64,000 bases of DNA from Koleobacter methoxysyntrophicus. GTDB taxonomy: Bacteria > Bacillota > Thermosediminibacteria > Koleobacterales > Koleobacteraceae. Under the pieces are notes generated by a model. That model had not been told where the DNA came from and ran no database searches. It saw only the letters and a list, made by a program, of their open reading frames with translations. The position numbers and the translations under genes are program-made. Location of the stretch: positions 2,678,888 to 2,742,887 of the forward strand of contig NZ_CP059066.1 in assembly GCF_017301615.1 (NCBI RefSeq). Reading direction: 5' to 3'. Each line of letters begins with the position of its first letter. The stretch's first letter is position 1. Positions 52,542 through 64,000 of this stretch are shown piece after piece.

Positions 52542-54429
52542 CCCAACTTTGACACTTCATCTGCCGTAAACCCTGATAAAATGGGCATATTTCGAACTAA
52601 ATTTGTACATTTTAGGACTACAAAATAGCCCTTTGAATGTTAAAGGGTAAACTCTTCTACGGGAATCACATTTTTCAGGGGTTTGATTCGCAGGACACGA
52701 AGAATCTTACTGCTCAGGTCTGTACCTTTGGTCTTGATGAAAAACCTCTTCTGCTCAATCTCAACCTCAGCAAAGTTCATGGAATTCAAAGCTTCACGAA
52801 TCTTATCCGGGGAGGCCGTCTCACCAGCTTTTTTCAGTTTGAATTCCAATGTTCTTTCCAGCAGGAAGGCCAAAAAGCAAATTAAGAAGTGCCCTTTAAT
52901 CCTCGGTTCGGTCCAATGAAAAATAGGCCTGACCTCCAGAGTACTTTTCATGATCCGGAACGATTCTTCGATCTTCCACAAGGTATGATAGGCTTCCAGC
53001 GCATCCTGGGGTTTTATGTCCTGCTCATTGGTCTGGATACCGTAGTAGCCGTCAAACCGTTCATCTCTGGCTATGGCTTCTTGGTCTAGATACCAGACCT
53101 CTTCGCCGGAATTTTTGAGGTATTTTTTGCCACCGCGTTTGTTGCTGGCCGTAATCTTGGATTGATCTTTTAAAAGCAGTTCGGCCTTTTGAATGAGCCT
53201 TTCTCGATCTTTTTGGTCTTTTCTGGCTCTTTTAGACGAATATGTAATGATAAGTTTTTCTTTTAGTTCGCAGGTCTTACCGTCTTGTTTGAATCTGTTA
53301 ATGTGGTCTATTACTTTGTAGAGTACCTTTTCGTCTTGATCTGAACTTAATTCGATATAACCTTCTGGGTCAAAGACCTGTTCCTCTATCTTTCTGCCCA
53401 TGTTCTTGAACCGTGCGGCAAAGATGTAGCTGTAGTTTCTATCGACGATCCTTTTCAGGTTCAGCTTGCTGTTTATACCCCTGTCAGCTACTATGATGAC
53501 CCTGCGAATACCAAAACGCTTCTCTAGTTTCTCAAGTGCCGTATCCAGGGTCTTGCCGTCAAAGGTGTTGCCGGGAAACAGTTCATAGCCGATAGGTCGG
53601 CCTTCACAGTCAACCAAGAGACCCAATACTACCTGGACTTCATTGAACTTCCCGTCTTTGCTGAAACCGAAATCTCTCAGTGTATCCGCTTTGACGCTCT
53701 CGAAGGAAAAGGTGGTTACATCATAAAATACTACGTCTACCTGCATATTGAAGAGGTTTCGGTTTTTATGAAACATTAATTCTTCTATTTGCTCTTTCTG
53801 GATATGGATGATGTCTAGTGCACGGTACAGGTGGTGTAATTCTACGTTCGGCAGCTGCACATAATACCCTTGGTTGGCATAAGTGGCTAACTTGCTCTTC
53901 GGCTGTAAAAGATGCTGGATGACCATGAGAAAACAGGCATTGCTCAAGTTAAACTGGGTCTTCCCTTTTTCTTTTATCCGGGTCAGTATCTTATCAAGTT
54001 CAAACACCTCCCAGATTTTTCTGTAGACGAGGTAGCCCCAGTTTACTATCCTTGCATCGGAAAAGCTTTCTAGGTCAATGACTTTCTTTGCCTTGGAAAG
54101 CTCTAACAGCCTCATTCCAAGACGCTGGAAGCTGGGGTTGTTCTCTATCTCGTCTAATCGACCCAGATTCAGAAGCACCCTATGTTTTACGTTTTTGCCC
54201 TCTCGATAGGATTCTACAAGCTGTGCGTATTTGTATTTTCCTGATTGGGTAATTTTGATGAACATAGGTATATTATACCACTATATGGCTTTGTAGTCAA
54301 TTACATCTGGAATATTTATTATGAAATATTGCCACTACATTTTTTAGAGCTTAAAATATAATATGCCCATTTTTCAAGGGTTCCAAGCCCTTAATTCGAA
54401 AAAAATCGCTCGCAACTGTCAAACTCGGG
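52542..54429 (-). mobile_element. IS1634-family insertion sequence, 1888 bp, apparently intact
   Basis: Terminal repeats CCCAACTTTGACACTT and (complement) CCCGAGTTTGACAGTT agree in 13 of 16 positions. One full-length transposase gene lies on the minus strand. It is flanked by a 94-bp direct duplication. Confidence 0.9.
52640..54265 (-). CDS. IS1634-family transposase
   Basis: A 541-residue DDE transposase of the IS4 superfamily: catalytic Asp in VVFYDVTTF, Asp in IIVADRGIN, and Glu in LWKIEESFRIMKS (the YREK-like motif). The N-terminus, FIKITQSGKYKYAQLVES, is typical of IS1634. Full length with no stop or frameshift, so the element may be active. Confidence 0.93.
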   Translation of the reverse strand: MFIKITQSGKYKYAQLVESYREGKNVKHRVLLNLGRLDEIENNPSFQRLGMRLLELSKAKKVIDLESFSDARIVNWGYLVYRKIWEVFELDKILTRIKEKGKTQFNLSNACFLMVIQHLLQPKSKLATYANQGYYVQLPNVELHHLYRALDIIHIQKEQIEELMFHKNRNLFNMQVDVVFYDVTTFSFESVKADTLRDFGFSKDGKFNEVQVVLGLLVDCEGRPIGYELFPGNTFDGKTLDTALEKLEKRFGIRRVIIVADRGINSKLNLKRIVDRNYSYIFAARFKNMGRKIEEQVFDPEGYIELSSDQDEKVLYKVIDHINRFKQDGKTCELKEKLIITYSSKRARKDQKDRERLIQKAELLLKDQSKITASNKRGGKKYLKNSGEEVWYLDQEAIARDERFDGYYGIQTNEQDIKPQDALEAYHTLWKIEESFRIMKSTLEVRPIFHWTEPRIKGHFLICFLAFLLERTLEFKLKKAGETASPDKIREALNSMNFAEVEIEQKRFFIKTKGTDLSSKILRVLRIKPLKNVIPVEEFTL

Positions 54430-54523
54430 AAAAAGTATCAGGTCATTTCAATGGCCGCAGAAGGCAGGATAACCATCAGGGAAGCTGCAGAAAGTTTAGG
54501 CCTTAGCGAACGCCAAATCAAAC
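54430..54523 (+). repeat. Target-site duplication of the IS1634 element, right copy (94 bp)
   Basis: Identical to 52448-52541; contains codons for YQVISMAAEG through ERQIK of the transposase. Confidence 0.9.
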
Positions 54524-55722
54524 GCCTGAAAAAAGGAGTGATGGAAGAAGGGCCGGCGTTCCTAATCCACAAAAATACAGGCCGAAAACCACAGCATGCA
54601 TTTACTGATGAAATCAAGAACAAAATTATCGTATTAAAGCAATCCGATATTTACAAAGACGCTAATTTCATGCATTTTGTGGAACTCCTTGCTGAACATG
54701 AGGATATAAGTATAAGTTATTCCTGTCTACACACCATTTTGACTAATGCGGGTATCAAAAGCCCTAAGAAACGCCGGAGATTCAAATCACATCGTCGCAG
54801 AAAGAGAAAGCCTCAGGAAGGCCTCCTGATCCAAATGGATGCTTCTCCCTTTGAATGGTTTGGCACCGATGAAAAATTTACCCTCCATGGTGCTATTGAT
54901 GACGCTACCGGTAAAATAGTCGGCCTTTACCTGGCTAAAAATGAGTGTCTGCAAGGGTATTTTGAGGTTACCTGGCAAATCTTAACTAAATACGGTATCC
55001 CTGTAAGTATCTATGCTGACAGGCACAGTATATTCCTTTCTCCAAATGCATCTAAACTTACGATTGAAGACCAGCTTACCGGCAAAGTAGTTAATGCTAC
55101 TCAGTTCGGCAGGGCTATGAATGAACTCGGTATTACCCTTATTCCTGCACGTTCCCCTCAAGCCAAGGGCAGGGTGGAACGGCTCTGGGAAACTCTTCAA
55201 AGCAGGCTCCCTATCGAGTTTAAGATTGCTGGTATTACTACTGTGGATCAGGCTAATGTGTTTTTATTGCAGTATATGGATAAATTTAATTCTCTGTTTG
55301 CTGTTGAAGCTCAAGTTTCTGAATCGGCTTACAGGCCTATTTCGGATGATGTTGATATTGCCCACGTGTTGTGTGTTAAATATCAAAGAACTGTTGATAA
55401 CGGTGGTGTGTTTTCTTTCTACGGCAAGCATTTCAAGGTTGTTTGTGATGGTGCTGTCCCTCCACGGGCAAGAATAAAAGTCTTGGTAAGCCCCGTCTTT
55501 GCTGTGAAAGCTCAATATAAGGATACTGTGTTTGATACGATTCCTTATGTGAAATCTAAAAAGACTCAAAAATCTAAGCCTGTTGAGAAAAAGACATATA
55601 GCCTACCTGACAGTCATTATTATAAGTATGGGCATTCTCTTGTTAAAAAGGTCTCTTTTGAGGATAGTGATAGGGATATCCTTAATATGCTTGAGGAAAT
55701 CTTCCTTACTAATTATGCTTGA
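54451..55722 (+). CDS. ISNCY/Mu-type transposase, nearly complete after the IS1634 insertion
   Basis: A 423-residue frame. It has an N-terminal HTH (RITIREAAESLGLSERQIKRL), a DDE core with Asp in LIQMDASPFEW, Asp in IYADRHSIF and Glu in GRVERLWE, and a Mu-type C-terminal barrel. The IS1634 duplication restores all but the first 14 codons, so an internal ATG (MAAEG) could give a functional enzyme if transcribed. It resembles ISNCY (ISDol1/IS1202-like) transposases. Confidence 0.85.
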   Translation: MAAEGRITIREAAESLGLSERQIKRLKKGVMEEGPAFLIHKNTGRKPQHAFTDEIKNKIIVLKQSDIYKDANFMHFVELLAEHEDISISYSCLHTILTNAGIKSPKKRRRFKSHRRRKRKPQEGLLIQMDASPFEWFGTDEKFTLHGAIDDATGKIVGLYLAKNECLQGYFEVTWQILTKYGIPVSIYADRHSIFLSPNASKLTIEDQLTGKVVNATQFGRAMNELGITLIPARSPQAKGRVERLWETLQSRLPIEFKIAGITTVDQANVFLLQYMDKFNSLFAVEAQVSESAYRPISDDVDIAHVLCVKYQRTVDNGGVFSFYGKHFKVVCDGAVPPRARIKVLVSPVFAVKAQYKDTVFDTIPYVKSKKTQKSKPVEKKTYSLPDSHYYKYGHSLVKKVSFEDSDRDILNMLEEIFLTNYA

Positions 55723-55911: not shown

Positions 55912-57168
55912 TTATGGATATGCAATTCTATCAGGAATCCAACAATCAGCATTAATTGATTCCATATATCTAATTTTTTTACTAATTGTCTCTAATGAGC
56001 GAACTTTACGCATAATTTCTTTACCAAATTGTTTGTGCTCAAAACTTTTTGAATAAAATGGGAATCCATGTCTTACACATATATTTTGTTTCCTTACATT
56101 TTTTCGAAACTGCTTTATTAAAGCATCTGTCCATCCAGTTTTTTCATGGATATAATAATCTTTTGAAGTTTGACTTGTTATTCTGGAATTATAATTGTCG
56201 CAAGTTTGATTTAAAGGCCTATATCTGCAATCCGCTATTTGGACCTTCCATTCCCAACATTTGATTCTTTTTTTTTCCATTTCCTCAAATGGAATATCCC
56301 AATTATAAAGCATAAAAATAAAAATCTCTTTAGTTTTATATCCCGCATTAATTAATATATCAATCTGTTTTTTAATTGTATTATATTCTTCATACTTCCA
56401 ATCCCAAGCAATTCTAGGATACCTAAACCCAGCATCTTTAATCATTTTTGCAAGATATGGTTTTTCTAATAATATTCTTCCATCAAAACCACTTTGACTT
56501 TCAATCCATTCAATTTTTCTGGCTTTCTTTATTTCTATAAGTTCTTTAAGAATATCCTCGATATAAGGGTTCATCAACAGGTTATTATCGTAAATTACAA
56601 CTTTTTCATACTGTATTTCATTTTTTATACTTTTCTTGGGAACAAATTCAGGTTCGATTCTCCAAGTTCCACAGAATGAACATTTCCGTTGACACCCTCT
56701 AGATGTATGTATGATCTGATAATCAATGGGATGAGAATTTGCATTTTTTATCAAATCGTATGCAGGAAGTTGAGTTTTTGTATATTCTTCTACCTCTGGA
56801 ATAACCCCCTGGTATACTTCATCGCAATTTGTATATTCTTTGCAATCTTCTGGCATTAAAGAAGCATAAATTCCACCAACTATGACTTTTGCATGAGGAA
56901 ATGTTTTTTTGTAATATTTAACAGCATCTCTGACATATTTTGCCCAATAAGTAAATAGAGAAGTTACCCAAATTTCACTAGGATTAAATTCTATAAGCTC
57001 TTTAATATTTTCTGAATTTTTGGGGATTCCTCTTATAAGTTTTACTTGGTAGCCATGATCTCTTAAATAACTAGCAATTTTGAGTAATCCAATAGGTAAA
57101 AAATTTTTATGGTTTTTACTTTTTGGTGGAATTGGAAAGTCTGGTTCAATTAAAAGAATCTTTTCCAT
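55912..57168 (-). CDS. Radical SAM protein with cobalamin-binding-like N-terminus (last gene of the five-gene operon)
   Basis: A 418-residue protein. The first 140 residues (ILLIEPDFPIPP... LPIGLLKIASYLRDHGY... KVIVGGIYASLMP) resemble the B12-binding domain of B12-radical SAM proteins. The cluster motif is CQRKCSFC (C-x3-C-x2-C), in TSRGCQRKCSFCGTW. Downstream FEEMEKKRIKCWEWKVQIADCRYRPLNQT follows. Substrate unknown. GGCGGGAG precedes the ATG, and the gene overlaps its upstream neighbour by 23 bases. Linkage to a DndD-like ATPase suggests DNA or nucleotide chemistry, by inference only. Confidence 0.85.
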   Translation of the reverse strand: MEKILLIEPDFPIPPKSKNHKNFLPIGLLKIASYLRDHGYQVKLIRGIPKNSENIKELIEFNPSEIWVTSLFTYWAKYVRDAVKYYKKTFPHAKVIVGGIYASLMPEDCKEYTNCDEVYQGVIPEVEEYTKTQLPAYDLIKNANSHPIDYQIIHTSRGCQRKCSFCGTWRIEPEFVPKKSIKNEIQYEKVVIYDNNLLMNPYIEDILKELIEIKKARKIEWIESQSGFDGRILLEKPYLAKMIKDAGFRYPRIAWDWKYEEYNTIKKQIDILINAGYKTKEIFIFMLYNWDIPFEEMEKKRIKCWEWKVQIADCRYRPLNQTCDNYNSRITSQTSKDYYIHEKTGWTDALIKQFRKNVRKQNICVRHGFPFYSKSFEHKQFGKEIMRKVRSLETISKKIRYMESINADCWIPDRIAYP

Positions 57169-57583
57169 TGCAGCTCCCGCCTAAACCCATTTCTTCATAA
57201 AGTTCAAATAAATCTTTTTCCAATTTCTTGTTAAAAGTTCCAAAAGATGAAGATTTCATCTCGTCTACTAATATTTTAATTCCAGCATGTGCATATTCTT
57301 CTGCTATTTTAAATACTTCATCTTTGTTAGATAAAATTATTAGACCCTTAGTAGTTATGGCTACAGCATTTAATAAAGCATAATCTTCTGCTTGTAGATC
57401 TTTAATCAAGAAAAAACCTTCCTTTGTTTCCAAGGAACGCCTAACTCCATTTTTAAATCCAAATGCCATAGCAAAGAGAAATTGCTCTTTTCTTGTTTTT
57501 CCCTCAAAGATTTCCTTACTTAATTCATTGTAGAGATTCCTATCTTTTTTGTCTATATTTATTCTATCTGGCATTTTTGACAT
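57146..57583 (-). CDS. 145-residue protein of unknown function in the DndD-like operon
   Basis: A soluble protein: RINIDKKDRNLYNELSKEIF... EQFLFAMAFGFKNGVRR... LQAEDYALLNAVAITTKG... VFKIAEEYAHAGIKIL. No motif I can name. The stop of the ATPase gene and its ATG overlap as TAATG, with GGAGG upstream, so translation is coupled. Its size is somewhat above that of DndE but I see no DndE sequence match. Probably a partner or DNA-binding subunit; inference. Confidence 0.75.
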   Translation of the reverse strand: MSKMPDRINIDKKDRNLYNELSKEIFEGKTRKEQFLFAMAFGFKNGVRRSLETKEGFFLIKDLQAEDYALLNAVAITTKGLIILSNKDEVFKIAEEYAHAGIKILVDEMKSSSFGTFNKKLEKDLFELYEEMGLGGSCNGKDSFN

Positions 57584-59547
57584 TACAATACCTCCATTTT
57601 CACTTCTTTTTCATTATGAGACATGTTAAATCTGTATCTATTAGAAGCCTTAGGATCTAAAATGCTTGAAATATCAAAGGAATAATCGTCAGGGGTAAAA
57701 AGTAATATTACCTGTTTATTTTTACTAATTAGAGAAAGTGTATCAACAATATTTTTTCTTGGTTCTCCAGAGACCATAGCAAGAGGACGGTCTATTATAA
57801 TTGGAGAATTAAAACCTGAAACTTTATGAAGAGCTATTGTAAACGCAAGGGTTAAGATTTCTCTTTCTCCACCAGAAATTGTTCCCAAACATTCGTATCC
57901 CATGGCATGGATAAGATTTATGTTGTAATTCTCATCAACTTTAATGTTCTTAAAACTTTCCTTTTTCCATATAAGATTGAAAAATAGTTTTTTTGTTTCT
58001 GATTCGATATTACTTCTTATCTCGCTTGTTATTTTTTCTTTTGTCTTATCTAATACCTCTAAGGTCCTAACACAAAAATCAATACACTTTTTTAATTTAG
58101 TAATCTTTTTTTCTCTATTGAGTTCATCATCTAATTTTTTCTTAAAATTTTCAATATCTTGTTCAAGTTGTTGTTTGTTTGACTTTAAAATACCTAATTT
58201 TTGTTGATTGTTATCGTAAATTTTTTCGAAATTCATTCTTTCCTCATGCCATTCTTTTATTTTTTCAGTATTGTAACCACTTAATTTCCTGTCAATTTCA
58301 AATATATTTTCTTCAATTTCTTCAAGTTCTTTATTGTATTTTTGAATTTCTTTTGATATTTTCTCAATATTTATTTTGAAATATTTTACTTCTTGTGAAT
58401 ATCTATTTAGAAAACTTTCCATGGACAAAAGCTCTTGAGCTATTTCTGATGACATACTTATCTCGTTAAGCAATTTTTCTATTTCTTTTTTAGCTCTATC
58501 ATCAAGTTTTCTTCCGCATATTGTACAAATATTATTTTTAATAGTTTCTTCCAGTAAAATTCTATCAATGGTTGGTGGTATTTCTTTAGCCATTTTCTTG
58601 CTTTTAACAACTTCTTTAGACTTGCAAATGGCAGGCCAAAGCATTATTATTTTACCATATTCGTATAACAAACCCTGTTTTTGGATTTCTTTTTCCTTCT
58701 TGTATTCTTCTTTTTCTTTTTTTGATTTTATTAATTTTCCTCTTTCTTTCTCAAGTTTTTCGACATCAGGCAATTCTCTTAATTTTTCTTCATATTCTCT
58801 AATTTTTTCTTTAGCTATTGCTATTTGTTGTTCACACTCTTCAATTTCTCTAGAAACTTCTCTGTACTCATTTTCTTTTTGCTCTAAATATTCTCTTGTT
58901 TCTTCAATTTTTGGATTTATTTTACCGGCATCTTTCCTAAATTCTTTTAAAATTATTTCGATTTTCCTGTACAATTCGCTTAACATTTCAACTTGAGAAA
59001 TTGCAGAAACAGTATGCCGTATATTTTGACCTGTAGCTTCTCTAAAATACCTATCTAACTTTTCTCCATCAAAAAAGAAAAACTCTCTTATTTTTTTAGG
59101 AACAAACCGTTCTACACAAGATTCGGCATCTTCACCCTCGAGTATTTTTGTATTTCCTTCATTATCAGTAATTTTTACTTCAAGAACTTCGGCTTGTTTT
59201 TGAGGAATATCTTGTCTGTTATATACTCTAAACATCGATTTTCTTGTGAAAATTATTTGACTATTGTTCTCTGTTTCTATCCAAACTTCTGCTACAACAT
59301 TTACATCTTTTTCGTATTCTGTTTCCGATATAACTTTAAGATTTGGCAGAGGTAATTGTTGAAAATCTCTTGATAAATAAGATTCATCGCCATAAAGACA
59401 CCAATTAATGGCATTTAAAAGATTTGTTTTCCCTGTACCCATAACACCAATAAAAATGTGTAAATCGTTAATATGTGTTTTACTTAATAGTATTTCTATA
59501 TCTTTAAACTGACGGTAATTCTTTAGAACAATTTTCTTTATTCTCAC
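57583..59547 (-). CDS. DndD-like SMC/Rad50-type ATPase with zinc hook
   Basis: A 654-residue protein. Walker A GVMGTGKTN is near residue 35, the DndD-type FFFFDGEKL near 155, two long coiled coils flank a CxxC zinc hook (CTICGRKL), and the C-terminus has the ABC signature TISGGERE and the Walker B variant PIIIDRPLA. Size and the FFFDGEK block resemble DndD of the DNA phosphorothioation system, but dndA, dndB and dndC are not in the window. Start is GTG at 59547 (GGGGTGA upstream) or GTG at 59556. It overlaps the 75-residue gene upstream. Confidence 0.85.
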   Translation of the reverse strand: MRIKKIVLKNYRQFKDIEILLSKTHINDLHIFIGVMGTGKTNLLNAINWCLYGDESYLSRDFQQLPLPNLKVISETEYEKDVNVVAEVWIETENNSQIIFTRKSMFRVYNRQDIPQKQAEVLEVKITDNEGNTKILEGEDAESCVERFVPKKIREFFFFDGEKLDRYFREATGQNIRHTVSAISQVEMLSELYRKIEIILKEFRKDAGKINPKIEETREYLEQKENEYREVSREIEECEQQIAIAKEKIREYEEKLRELPDVEKLEKERGKLIKSKKEKEEYKKEKEIQKQGLLYEYGKIIMLWPAICKSKEVVKSKKMAKEIPPTIDRILLEETIKNNICTICGRKLDDRAKKEIEKLLNEISMSSEIAQELLSMESFLNRYSQEVKYFKINIEKISKEIQKYNKELEEIEENIFEIDRKLSGYNTEKIKEWHEERMNFEKIYDNNQQKLGILKSNKQQLEQDIENFKKKLDDELNREKKITKLKKCIDFCVRTLEVLDKTKEKITSEIRSNIESETKKLFFNLIWKKESFKNIKVDENYNINLIHAMGYECLGTISGGEREILTLAFTIALHKVSGFNSPIIIDRPLAMVSGEPRKNIVDTLSLISKNKQVILLFTPDDYSFDISSILDPKASNRYRFNMSHNEKEVKMEVL

Positions 59548-59731
59548 AATTCTCACCCCAGCTTTCAGAATATAGAATTATTTTCTTTCTATATACATCT
59601 TTCCACCACCAAGAACCAGCATGTTCAGTTTCTTCATAAAATAACTCTATTAAGAAATTGATTATATCCTCATCTTCGCTACATTTTTTGAGTCCTTTTA
59701 TTATTCTTTCATTAATTCTATCTTTGCTCAT
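59504..59731 (-). CDS. 75-residue protein of unknown function in the DndD-like operon
   Basis: A small acidic, Trp-rich protein: RINERIIKGLKKCSEDEDIINFLIELFYEE, then AGSWWWKDVYRKKI. The ATG overlaps the helicase stop, and the end overlaps the ATPase start by about 44 bases, so it is locked into the operon. I do not recognise the family. Confidence 0.65.
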   Translation of the reverse strand: MSKDRINERIIKGLKKCSEDEDIINFLIELFYEETEHAGSWWWKDVYRKKIILYSESWGENCENKENCSKELPSV

Positions 59732-61854
59732 AGTTTCCCCTCCTTCATTTTGTTTTTGATATCAGATATCAATTTTAAAGCATCAGCATTGTTAACTGCA
59801 ATTTCTGCTATTTCTTTGTACCTTTTTAATTCTTTCTCGAAAATTTTCCATTCCAGTTCTTTTAATTCATGAGGTAAATTTTTGTCCAAGGAAGGAGCAA
59901 CTATTATATCATAAATAGTAGCTTCACTTTTACTCGAATACCTTCTAATTACTCTTCCTATGCGCTGAATGTACTCCCTTGAATTTCCACTACTTGCCAT
60001 CAAAATTGCAGCTCTAGCTTGAGGAACATCTATTCCTTCATCTAAGCATTTCATAGCAACTAAAACTTGATACTCTCCAATCGCAAATTTTTTAAGTAAA
60101 TAATCTCTTTCCGATAAACCATTATATTTCTTATCAGGTTTTGTGCTTTCTTCCATTGTAAAACGATGAGAGTTTATTCCTTCTTTGCTAATTATCCTCA
60201 TAATTTCATCTATTTGTTGAGGGGTACAATATATTAGAGTATATTTAATAGGATTAAGTTTTTTCAAAATTTTTTTTAAAACGTCATATTTTCTTTTTGC
60301 ATTTTTAATTATATTTGCTCTTGCAAAAAGTAAATTTTCCAGAATTTCATCTTTTTCTTCGCTGTTCTTTGCTGTAAAATATTTCACAACTATAGTTCTT
60401 GTTTTGTCAAGATATTCTTCTAATTCTTCTTCAGTTAACGATACAAACTTCGGTTTATATCTATAAGGTGTAAGATAAGTTTTCCCGATAGAAGGATTTA
60501 TCTTAGTAATAGCATCCTTTAAGCTAAACTCATAAACAATTCCTCCAAAATAATCATAAATTTTTTGAGTGCCAATACTATCAAACCATCTTTGGGGAGT
60601 AGCACTAAGCCCCAATCTAAAATCATATTCTTTTATTAAGCCTTTCCTGCTTTTCTTAGCACCAAGCCAATGAACTTCATCTGCTATCAACATAATATTG
60701 AACTTTCTTTTATTTCTTTGTATTATTCTGATGAAATCATCTGAAGAGAATGTACGATGAGTTGTCAAAACAATAAGCTTTTTTATATAACCCAATTCTA
60801 GGTCTATTAATGAGTTTGCAAATTTATCTTTCCATTGTACGCCACTATAAGCTAAGATTAAATTATCATATTCTATACCAAATTTCTTTATCTCGTTCTT
60901 CCATTGATTTGTTAAATGCTGATAAGAGCAAGTTATTATAAGCAAAACTTTGGACTCGTCTTCAAAAATTTTATTAGCACATCCTAAAGCAGTAAATGTT
61001 TTGCCAGTACCAGTAGCCATTTCAAAAATTCCGCTCGAGTTATTCTTTAACCATGCATCAATTGCATCTTTTTGATACTTGTAGAGTTCTATTTTTTTCT
61101 TTTTTCTTTTTGTCTTTTCATACCATCTATCTAATTGTATATCCTCTATATCCTTCGGTGCAATCTCCAGTAACTTTTTCTTTACAGCATGAGGAAGACT
61201 TATAGTTTTAACCTGCTGAGACGAACCATTCCAAAATCTATAAAACTTTTCAATGTCAGATTTGGCGTAATCCTTTTCTTCTTCTATCCAACTTCTAAAC
61301 ACTTTGAATTCTTCTACATTATTAAGCCATCCAGATGCCGTCTCATTAATAGATCCACTGAAAGTAACAATATTCCCTTCAGAGTCCTTCATAATACCTA
61401 CCTTTTGATGAAAAATCCCTTTTATTTGTAATTCATCCTGCTTTAAAGGAAAACCATTTTCATTATATGGAATTGCTACTCTAATTTCTAGTTTGTTATT
61501 AGCAACCATCCATCCTAAGGCAAATATGTGGTCTCGAATGAAATCTTCGCCCAATTTGTTCAGTTCCTGCGACATTTTTTTTCCGATATAATTTTCCGGA
61601 TGCTCCTTGGCTTCTATTATTGCATTTAAATCATCTTTTGTTAATTTAGGACATACTATTAATTTTATTATTCCTTTATTTCTTATAAAGGTCGATATAC
61701 CTTTAGCTGCTATTGCTAAAGAGGTTGATGAAAAAAAGCCTGCGAGCCTATAATATTCAGTTGATTCGTTAAGTACTGGAATATAAAAATCGTGCAAAAT
61801 ATCGTCACAATCTGAGGAATATGTTCTTTTAAGTAAAATTGTTTTTAAACCCAT
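59728..61854 (-). CDS. PLD-domain superfamily 2 helicase (first gene of the five-gene operon)
   Basis: A 708-residue protein. Residues 1-220 form a phospholipase D-like nuclease domain with HQKVGIMKD (HxK) and SGSINETASGW. Residues 255-700 form an SF2 helicase with ATGTGKT (Walker A), LIADEVHWLG (DEVH box), LGLSATPQRW, LVAMKCLDEGID and QRIGRVIRR. PLD-helicase fusions occur in several bacterial defence and restriction systems. AAGGGG lies 9 bases before the ATG. No clear promoter is visible; the gene starts 34 bases after a degraded integrase, so it may be read from there. Confidence 0.9.
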   Translation of the reverse strand: MGLKTILLKRTYSSDCDDILHDFYIPVLNESTEYYRLAGFFSSTSLAIAAKGISTFIRNKGIIKLIVCPKLTKDDLNAIIEAKEHPENYIGKKMSQELNKLGEDFIRDHIFALGWMVANNKLEIRVAIPYNENGFPLKQDELQIKGIFHQKVGIMKDSEGNIVTFSGSINETASGWLNNVEEFKVFRSWIEEEKDYAKSDIEKFYRFWNGSSQQVKTISLPHAVKKKLLEIAPKDIEDIQLDRWYEKTKRKKKKIELYKYQKDAIDAWLKNNSSGIFEMATGTGKTFTALGCANKIFEDESKVLLIITCSYQHLTNQWKNEIKKFGIEYDNLILAYSGVQWKDKFANSLIDLELGYIKKLIVLTTHRTFSSDDFIRIIQRNKRKFNIMLIADEVHWLGAKKSRKGLIKEYDFRLGLSATPQRWFDSIGTQKIYDYFGGIVYEFSLKDAITKINPSIGKTYLTPYRYKPKFVSLTEEELEEYLDKTRTIVVKYFTAKNSEEKDEILENLLFARANIIKNAKRKYDVLKKILKKLNPIKYTLIYCTPQQIDEIMRIISKEGINSHRFTMEESTKPDKKYNGLSERDYLLKKFAIGEYQVLVAMKCLDEGIDVPQARAAILMASSGNSREYIQRIGRVIRRYSSKSEATIYDIIVAPSLDKNLPHELKELEWKIFEKELKRYKEIAEIAVNNADALKLISDIKNKMKEGKL

Positions 61855-61887: not shown

Positions 61888-62492
61888 CTATTCCCACGCC
61901 AGCTTATTTACACTCTTCTGCAGGTCTCTCCTCGTCGGCCTTGTGTACCTTGCCGTTACATTCAGATCCGAATGGCCGGCAAGTTCGGCCACCCTGTCAA
62001 GGCTTTCCCCTGCATCCACCAGGGCCTTGCAGAAGGTATGCCTTAAAACGTGCGGTGTTATATCTTCCAGCCTGGCGTTGTATGCGTATTTCTCTATCAT
62101 ATATTCGATATTCCGGATGGTCATGGCCCTGCCGGTCTTCCCCGGAAACAGCGGGCCGGGTTCGCTTCCTCTTACGGCAAGCCAGTTTTTCAGCGCTTTT
62201 CTGGCCGTCAGGTTGAGCGGTACTTCACGGTATTTATTTCCCTTGCCGGAGCGTACGGTTAGATAACCGCTGCAGGTTTATAACCCCTGTTCTGCAGATG
62301 CCTCTTGAATTCTGCTATATCCAGCGGTCCCACCGATGCTGTTTCGGGCAGTTCACCGGCTGTTTCCTGATACCATTTTATAAATTTTTTTAGATCGGCC
62401 AGATATGCTTCTATTGTTCTGAGGCTAGAGTCTTTTCCTTTTAAATACTGTTTAAATTCAGGAATAATACCGTACACAGCCTGCAGTTTCAC
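61888..62492 (-). pseudogene. Tyrosine recombinase (XerC/D-like) with an internal deletion
   Basis: The N-terminal core-binding half (62492-62259: KGKDSSLRTIEAYLADLKKFIKWYQ) stops at AAVI. A second frame from about 62255 reads VRSGKGNKYREVPLNLTARKAL... and contains HVLRHTFCKAL, GHSDLNVTARY (HxxR, GH, Tyr) to 61888. About 90 residues including the first catalytic Arg are missing, and the halves are in different frames. The codon use is more GC-rich than the core. Confidence 0.85.
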
Positions 62493-62969: not shown

Positions 62970-63010
62970 ATTTAAATTATAAACAGATGTTGCATAGAAA
63001 GGGTGAGCTC

Positions 63011-63553
63011 GTGAAAAAAAATTTATTTTGGATGATTTTAATTTATAAAGTCCCGGCAGAACCTTCCACTTTGCGCGTCAGGGCGTGGCGCAAAATAAAG
63101 GACATGGGTGCACTGTACCTGCAGCAATCGGTGGCCATATATCCAAAAATAAAACACCTGGTGGAAAAATTTTCAGACCTTGTGGCGGAGATAAGGGCGT
63201 CGGAGGGGGAGGCGTTATTATTTGAAGTGATTAATCTTTCCGGAGAGGAAGAAGAAGCCCTCATTTTTAAATTTAACGAGCAGAGGAACCTGGAGTACAG
63301 AGAACTTATGGACAAGTGTGAGGACTTTTTTGCCGAGATAAAAAAAGAGACGGAGAGGCAAAATTTCACCTTTGCAGAATTGGAGGAAAACGATGAGGAA
63401 CTCGACAAGCTTTCGAGATGGTATGAAAAAATAAAAGAAAGAGATTTTTTTGAAGCATCGATGAGGCAAAAAGCCGAAGAGATGCTTGCAAGATGCCGTG
63501 AGATGTTTTTCGAATTTGCCCAGACCGTATATAAAAAAGAAGGGACGATGTGA
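63011..63553 (+). CDS. ChrB N-terminal domain-like protein
   Basis: A 180-residue cytoplasmic protein: LFWMILIYKVPAEPSTLRVRAWRKIKDMGALYLQQSVAIYP matches the ChrB_N domain of chromate-resistance regulators, followed by a coiled-coil, Glu-rich part. I start at GTG 63011 with AAAGGGTGA upstream. It is 1 base from the MFS gene, so the pair may form an export or stress module. The chromate link is by family name only. Confidence 0.8.
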   Translation: MKKNLFWMILIYKVPAEPSTLRVRAWRKIKDMGALYLQQSVAIYPKIKHLVEKFSDLVAEIRASEGEALLFEVINLSGEEEEALIFKFNEQRNLEYRELMDKCEDFFAEIKKETERQNFTFAELEENDEELDKLSRWYEKIKERDFFEASMRQKAEEMLARCREMFFEFAQTVYKKEGTM

Positions 63554-63554
63554 T

Positions 63555-64000
63555 ATGTTTAACATTATATTGCTGGGTCTTACAAGCCTCCTTACTGATA
63601 TAAGCACCGAGATGGTTTATCCTCTATTGCCCATATTCCTGACTACAAAGCTGGGAGCCACTCCCCTTATTGTTGGCACCATCGAAGGAATAGCCGAAAG
63701 TCTTGCCAGCCTTCTGAAAGTGTTTTCCGGATATTCTTCCGACAAAATGAAAAAGAGAAAACCTTTTGCCATTGCCGGATACGGATTTTCTACCATAGGC
63801 AAGGTGTTGCTTTATCTTGCAGCATCATGGCATTTTGTGCTGGCCGGAAGGATGGCAGATAGATTTGGCAAAGGGATCAGAACTGCTCCCAGGGATGCCC
63901 TTATAGCCGAGTCGGCCGGTGTGGGCAGCCGCGGAAGGGCCTTTGGGCTTCACAGGGCTATGGATACCCTTGGTGCCACTATAGGGGTAGTGCTGGCTTA
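63555..64000 (+). CDS. MFS transporter, N-terminal part (runs off window)
   Basis: About 148 residues of a major facilitator: GLTSLLTDISTEMVYPLLPIFL, the loop GYSSDKMKKRKPF between helices 2 and 3 (the MFS motif A position), and GRMADRFGKGIRTAPRDALIAE. It matches the MFS group often linked to multidrug/metal export. The ATG follows GAAGGGACG. Co-transcribed with the ChrB-like gene. Confidence 0.88.
   Translation, partial: MFNIILLGLTSLLTDISTEMVYPLLPIFLTTKLGATPLIVGTIEGIAESLASLLKVFSGYSSDKMKKRKPFAIAGYGFSTIGKVLLYLAASWHFVLAGRMADRFGKGIRTAPRDALIAESAGVGSRGRAFGLHRAMDTLGATIGVVLA

Follow-up and report, generated by a model that had tools for sequence, protein, structure and literature searches.

The window analysed here, a 64,000 nt stretch of the Koleobacter methoxysyntrophicus genome (contig NZ_CP059066.1, positions 2,678,888 to 2,742,887 of the forward strand), contains a five-gene operon at 55912-61854 and raises the question of whether these genes form an undescribed defence or DNA-modification system, as was proposed from the sequence alone, or a known one with a new part. 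The effector module of the operon, PbeABCD, is already known; the new part is a B12-type radical S-adenosylmethionine (SAM) protein, abbreviated rSAM, which is found in place of the phosphorothioation enzymes. Judged from genomic context, the rSAM module probably replaces Dnd as the writer of a self mark on DNA.

The first four genes are the PbeABCD (CxC-ATPase) module, since the PADLOC matches, the gene order and the protein sizes agree with published pbeABCD. pbeA (59728..61854, minus strand) encodes a 708 aa protein with an HKD/PLD nuclease-like domain fused to a superfamily 2 (SF2) helicase; it matches PADLOC PbeA at 780 bits and NCBIfam dnd_restrict_1 at 431 bits, and is up to 60% identical to PbeA of other loci (designated here by numbers preceded by L). 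Pfam assigns ResIII and Helicase_C, with SF2 helicase motifs present, and PLDc_2 weakly; the PLD-type domain, already noticed in the sequence-only reading, displays an HxK...D motif (HQKVGIMKD, residues 149-157; 61384..61410, minus strand) whose H149, K151 and D157 are invariant in a three-way alignment, together with a GS.N motif. pbeB (59504..59731, minus strand) encodes a small protein of 75 aa that resembles published PbeB (66 aa) in place and size; it is 47-51% identical to small open reading frames (ORFs) at the equivalent place in L012 and L013, and the order A-B-C-D is kept, with PbeB-like ORFs equivalently placed in L010, L012, L013 and L020. pbeC (57583..59556, minus strand; start possibly 59547) encodes a 657 aa CxC-clade ABC ATPase (Pfam AAA_23) with a Walker A motif, an SGGE signature, the FFFFDGEKL block and a CTIC zinc hook (58516..58527, minus strand), both cysteines of which are invariant in the three-way alignment. 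The zinc hook and FFFFDGEKL had led to its description as DndD-like; both features are present, but the protein is nearer to PbeC than to DndD because its PADLOC score is higher for PbeC (592 bits, versus 164 bits for DndD) and because the hook is a trait of the CxC clade, canonical DndD being without one (PMC10853773). pbeD (57146..57583, minus strand) encodes a 145 aa dnd_assoc_4-like protein, which matches TIGR04062 (dnd_assoc_4) at 31 bits (E 2e-7) against a model cut-off of 74 and is 58% identical to ORFs at the equivalent place in L012 and L013; a profile comparison with DndE gave no significant match.

The genes lie on one strand with overlapping ends, as first described, and the ORF list of the window has all five intact, on the minus strand and with conserved motifs. 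pbeA and pbeB share a 4 nt ATGA overlap, pbeC and pbeD meet at TAATG, and pbeD overlaps by 23 nt the gene of the 418 aa B12-type rSAM protein (55912..57168, minus strand), the proposed DNA-modifying partner; these junctions agree with the sequence-only reading, as does its overlap of about 44 nt between pbeB and pbeC if pbeC starts at the GTG at 59547, a start argued from alignment with homologues and from GGGGTG upstream, the overlap being 53 nt otherwise.

PbeABCD is an experimentally tested antiviral module that acts with DndCDEA phosphorothioation (PMC6459918). The haloarchaeal DndCDEA-PbeABCD of H. jeotgali A29 is alike in its pbeA-B-C-D order, HKD-helicase and zinc-hook ABC ATPase, and in size (PbeB of 66 aa and PbeD of 152 aa, compared with 75 and 145 aa here); it differs in that the Koleobacter locus has no linked dndCDEA, its genome no DndC, and a B12-type rSAM gene follows pbeD (PMC6459918). 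The CxC ABC ATPase systems of Rakesh et al. 2024 comprise an HKD nuclease-helicase, a small protein, a zinc-hook ATPase and a DndE cognate; those that occur with cytosine methylases share with the present locus a CxC-ATPase core and a modification partner other than phosphorothioation, however the partner is a methylase there and an rSAM here, and radical SAM is mentioned in the text of that work for DndC chemistry only (PMC10853773). The core is therefore not undescribed: four of the five genes belong to a named and tested module (PADLOC; PMC6459918, PMC10853773), and the match to a named system does not extend to the rSAM gene.

What has become of the Dnd partner? No dnd genes are found near the window locus, and DndC (TIGR03183) is absent from the Koleobacter genome at E 1e-5; a leftover Dnd system elsewhere in the genome was considered and rejected, as there is no DndC. 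A linked dndCDEA is not required for the PbeABCD name, since 320 of the 553 PbeAC pairs (~58%) surveyed by Xiong et al. 2019 have no dndCD nearby; 155 of those 320 have candidate base-modifying genes nearby, and the modification partner of the rest was left as a question (PMC6459918). It is improbable that the operon is a solitary, inactive PbeABCD remnant that has lost its Dnd partner; the lack of DndC and the broken integrase in the island would suit such a history, and inactivity of solitary pbeAC is among the possibilities raised by Xiong et al. (PMC6459918), but the five ORFs are intact with conserved motifs, and comparable intact sets with an rSAM have been retained in both bacteria and archaea.

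The protein found in the place of Dnd matches the Pfam B12-binding domain at 48 bits, above the cut-off, and Radical_SAM at 26.3 bits, below the cut-off of 29.5; the second assignment is held despite this score because the CxxxCxxC motif (CQRKCSFC; 56671..56694, minus strand; three cysteines invariant in 16 homologues) and the fold agree. The AlphaFold2 model (mean predicted local distance difference test, pLDDT, of 82; weaker at the cluster loop) matches the cobalamin-type radical SAM enzymes AprD4, TokK, CysS and OxsB, AprD4 best; motif and predicted structure together feature CxxxCxxC, a TIM barrel and a Rossmann B12-binding fold. The likeness to these four enzymes lies in the predicted fold, CxxxCxxC and the B12-binding-like domain, however identity is only 11-14% and the enzymes act on small molecules: the substrate of AprD4, whose B12-like domain is without a working cobalamin, is a sugar and that of OxsB deoxyadenosine nucleotides, with TokK and CysS both methylases. 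Because the four differ in substrate and chemistry, the reaction is not fixed by the fold. PDB sequence searches with the rSAM profile, and with that of the helper proteins described below, gave no significant match. Viperin was also tried as an identity and rejected, there being no match to the PADLOC viperin models; a match to another model was no better than chance.

Association of the rSAM gene with pbe recurs well beyond Koleobacter. PbeC is present in three of 398 genomes of the phylum, that of the window included, and the other two Pbe loci (L008 and L009) both have a CxxxCxxC rSAM gene beside pbe; the rSAMs of L008 and L009 are ~54% identical to each other, and a Marinitoga phage protein connects them with the window rSAM (E 5e-40 against the latter, 3e-22 against the L008 protein). 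Reverse searches find the close rSAM type in exactly those three of 398 genomes, six other genomes of the phylum having distant copies only (75 bits or less); the probability of coincidence is ~1e-7, or 8e-6 if loose copies are counted. The PbeA N-terminal domain, searched in ~85,000 species genomes, yielded 36 loci, among which L030 is the L009 locus; with the window and L008 added, an rSAM gene accompanies pbe in 17 loci. Further Pbe-rSAM loci are L225, the second in the Bacteroidota genome of L010, and the viral contig L141, which carries a fused rSAM-helper, pbeA, pbeC and a PbeD-like ORF; L222 and L223 are probable cases, split by contig ends. An out-of-sample search with PbeC only, in 397 genomes of another family, brought up a single new Pbe locus apart from the chosen centre (L229; rSAM-helper-pbeA-pbeC, then a PbeD-like ORF), and a PbeC search of the order of genome G133, of 10 genomes only, added nothing. 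The total is 20 Pbe loci flanked by rSAM, from Bacillota, Bacteroidota and several archaeal phyla, plus the two probable ones; the genomes include those of Mitsuokella jalaludinii DSM 13811 and Peptacetobacter hominis. Co-occurrence had been put forward as a check in the sequence-only reading, and the pairing of rSAM with Pbe does recur across phyla.

These loci display three layouts. The pbeABCD-rSAM order of the window is seen in L012 (rSAM 69% identical) and L013 (54%); in Bacillota and unplaced bacteria the rSAM and a helper of 200-250 aa lie upstream of pbeA, as a single fusion protein in L023, L025, L026 and L027, with L030 an exception in having the rSAM downstream; in the third layout the rSAM is accompanied by a DndB/DGQHR protein (L015, L016) or a GHKL ATPase (L010). 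The distances of PbeA and rSAM correlate (r 0.72; 0 of 5000 permutations), as expected for joint inheritance. A functional partnership between rSAM and Pbe is well supported and highly probable. That the rSAM is instead mobile-element cargo, often found beside defence genes and with no functional tie to Pbe, is very improbable; the family is abundant on viral contigs and the operon sits amid transposase and integrase remnants, but cargo would not be expected to overlap its neighbours as in the window, to keep an equal order in L012 and L013, to form one protein with the 230-aa helper ahead of pbeA in four loci and also in L141, to diverge in correlation with PbeA, or to be present in every Pbe locus of the PbeC-only searches bar the chosen centre (window, L008, L009, L229).

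The rSAM also alternates with the genes for phosphorothioation. dnd genes lie beside pbe in eight loci (L014, L017, L019, L021, L034, L036, L038, L041), none of which has an rSAM gene (0/8), and dnd is found in the flank of none of the 17 rSAM-linked loci; among rSAM-free loci with complete pbeA-pbeC, eight of 14 carry dnd, versus 0/17 of the rSAM loci (Fisher p 3.8e-4). The Pfam neighbours of the rSAM-free loci include DndE (7), D12 methyltransferase (5) and PAPS reductase (5), and these three are not among the families with at least two neighbours in rSAM loci (single-member families are partly listed). On the PbeA tree, the deepest branches of which are weakly supported, rSAM linkage needs three changes and dnd linkage five. 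In the sequence-only reading the radical SAM protein could replace DndA/DndC; a replacement is indeed seen, however at these loci it is the whole dndCDEA set whose place is taken.

The company kept by the rSAM points to DNA as its likely substrate. Its helpers, fused or paired, are a 230-aa protein, a DndB/DGQHR protein or a GHKL ATPase. The 230-aa family (e.g. L032:9279-9983) is 200-250 aa long, all-helical (model pLDDT 92) and contains the motifs KYGENH and LS.ST..RR..N; it is fused to rSAM in five loci, L141 included. Neither Pfam nor NCBIfam gives it a meaningful match, and at E 0.001 the PDB contains no similar fold, the nearest being the Roquin ROQ domain at 0.08; it is at most a candidate DNA-binding helix-turn-helix protein. 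The DndB/DGQHR partners are relatives of the helper proteins of the Dnd and Dpd DNA-modification systems. The likeness to Dpd 7-deazaguanine modification lies in the DpdB-like DGQHR proteins found with rSAM in L015, L016 and L221; the loci differ in that Dpd includes neither rSAM nor PbeABCD and that no DpdA-type transglycosylase, for which no specific search was made, was noticed at them. GHKL (MORC-like) ATPases are components of restriction systems (Iyer et al. 2008, PMC2292703).

Relatives of the rSAM are also found on viral contigs (IMG/VR loci L061-L220), where two scans with alignments of other family members gave at least 479 and 151 of them. When the query was only the window rSAM, that rSAM together with MCV1, or the window PbeA, no viral match emerged, and plasmid records contained no rSAM match at E 1e-10. 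The phage family corresponds to phrog_9298; its copies sit among DNA-metabolism genes, often near methyltransferase or ParB genes, which is weak support as such genes are common in phages. In ten viral-contig loci the rSAM is tightly paired with a GHKL ATPase, and in seven of those ten a six-gene set is conserved: ParB-like, nuclease-like (~140 aa, IGEAKT), SNF2 helicase, ParB-like, rSAM and GHKL (L069:1408-8783, L071, L073, L074, L101 and L109, with L075, in which the small gene went undetected). This cassette is a candidate for an undescribed restriction-like or defence system. It resembles MORC/paraMORC restriction in that genes for a GHKL ATPase, an SF2/SNF2 helicase and a nuclease occur together, however the partners there are DNA methylases, radical SAM being unmentioned, and here the partner is rSAM (PMC2292703). 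In L162, a partial cassette, ParB-Nuc-SNF2-ParB lies beside a Bacillota-type rSAM and a 230-aa helper homologue; two restriction-like modules therefore seem able to exchange rSAM-helper pairs. The genome of L014 has an rSAM-DGQHR pair (L221:7728-10237) that adjoins genes encoding 1116, 269, 646 and 1024 aa proteins and no Pbe; these neighbours are possibly a third partner set.

That the rSAM installs a DNA mark, as the sequence-only reading proposed, is a reasonable inference, strengthened by the DndB/DGQHR partners and the second restriction-like cassette; the GHKL ATPase contexts likewise favour DNA as the substrate. The rSAM, guided by a DNA-scanning pair of PbeC and PbeD, would chemically modify host DNA, and in the relatives a helper (230-aa protein, DndB/DGQHR or GHKL ATPase) may also guide it; PbeA, through its helicase and PLD-type nuclease domain and together with PbeB-D, would go on to block or cleave DNA without the mark. 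Candidate chemistries are methylation that depends on B12 and a radical alteration of sugar or base like those of AprD4 or OxsB. We infer the DNA substrate, self-protection by the mark and the activity of the module. The broader proposal, that a phage-abundant B12-type rSAM family writes an undescribed DNA mark and is coupled by exchangeable helpers to at least two different restriction modules, PbeABCD and the ParB-nuclease-SNF2 cassette, the self mark being neither a phosphorothioate nor the product of a methylase, stands at about even odds.

The best rival is that the rSAM works with Pbe without marking DNA, either modifying a Pbe protein or making a viperin-like small-molecule or nucleotide effector or signal. 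Viperin is an example of rSAM enzymes that can make antiviral nucleotides, and this, the substrate of OxsB and the small-molecule nature of the nearest solved structures (AprD4, TokK, CysS, OxsB) speak for it; it is nevertheless rather unlikely, as there is no PADLOC viperin match, a family common on phages is not expected to make an anti-phage compound, the placement of the rSAM alternates with dnd modification genes, and its associates are DndB/DGQHR, GHKL and ParB-like proteins. Several points weigh against the rSAM as writer of a DNA mark for Pbe. The case for any member of this family acting on DNA is one of genomic context, and none of the three helpers (DGQHR, GHKL, 230-aa) is present at the window locus. 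Loci with rSAM and loci with dnd exclude each other, but genomes do not, as the rSAM genomes of L027 and L037 carry dndC elsewhere and the genome of dnd-linked L014 (Methanoregula) has an rSAM elsewhere. Most of the hundreds of relatives on viral contigs are without Pbe, so the family is not Pbe-specific; and because the 36-locus scan was seeded from three rSAM-bearing loci, the rSAM fraction of that sample is inflated and gives no general frequency.

The coupling of Pbe with rSAM was not found in the searched literature, outside of which lies Krishnan et al. 2020, reportedly the first description of CxC systems, which may mention rSAM. Of the dnd-free PbeAC, about half have no methyltransferases either, and for many a recurrent rSAM partner offers a concrete answer to the question of Xiong et al. 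(PMC6459918); if the rSAM does mark DNA, it would be a new self-recognition chemistry of DNA used by bacteria, archaea and phages, and would provide the first functional lead for the large phage family phrog_9298.

The operon lies in a mobile island beside integrase remnants, as had been recognized from the sequence. Transposase-like genes, identified by eye from the ORF list, are found at 52640-54265 (minus strand) and 54451-55722 (plus strand), and a broken tyrosine recombinase, also identified by eye, marks the island edge at 61888..62492 (minus strand) as two ORF pieces (61888-62124 and 62259-62492); the G+C content of the operon is 29.6%, versus 36.4% for the window. Just beyond the island, at 62987-63998, a ChrB N-terminal-like (chromate resistance) gene is followed by a major facilitator superfamily (MFS) transporter gene, both assigned by eye. 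Elsewhere, in L224:908-6630 and L008:3046-7339, a sigma-70-like gene (~350 aa) is followed by a DEAD helicase gene of ~1070 aa; this pair, judged alike from lengths and N-terminal sequence only, adjoins rSAM in L224 and the Pbe-rSAM locus in L008.

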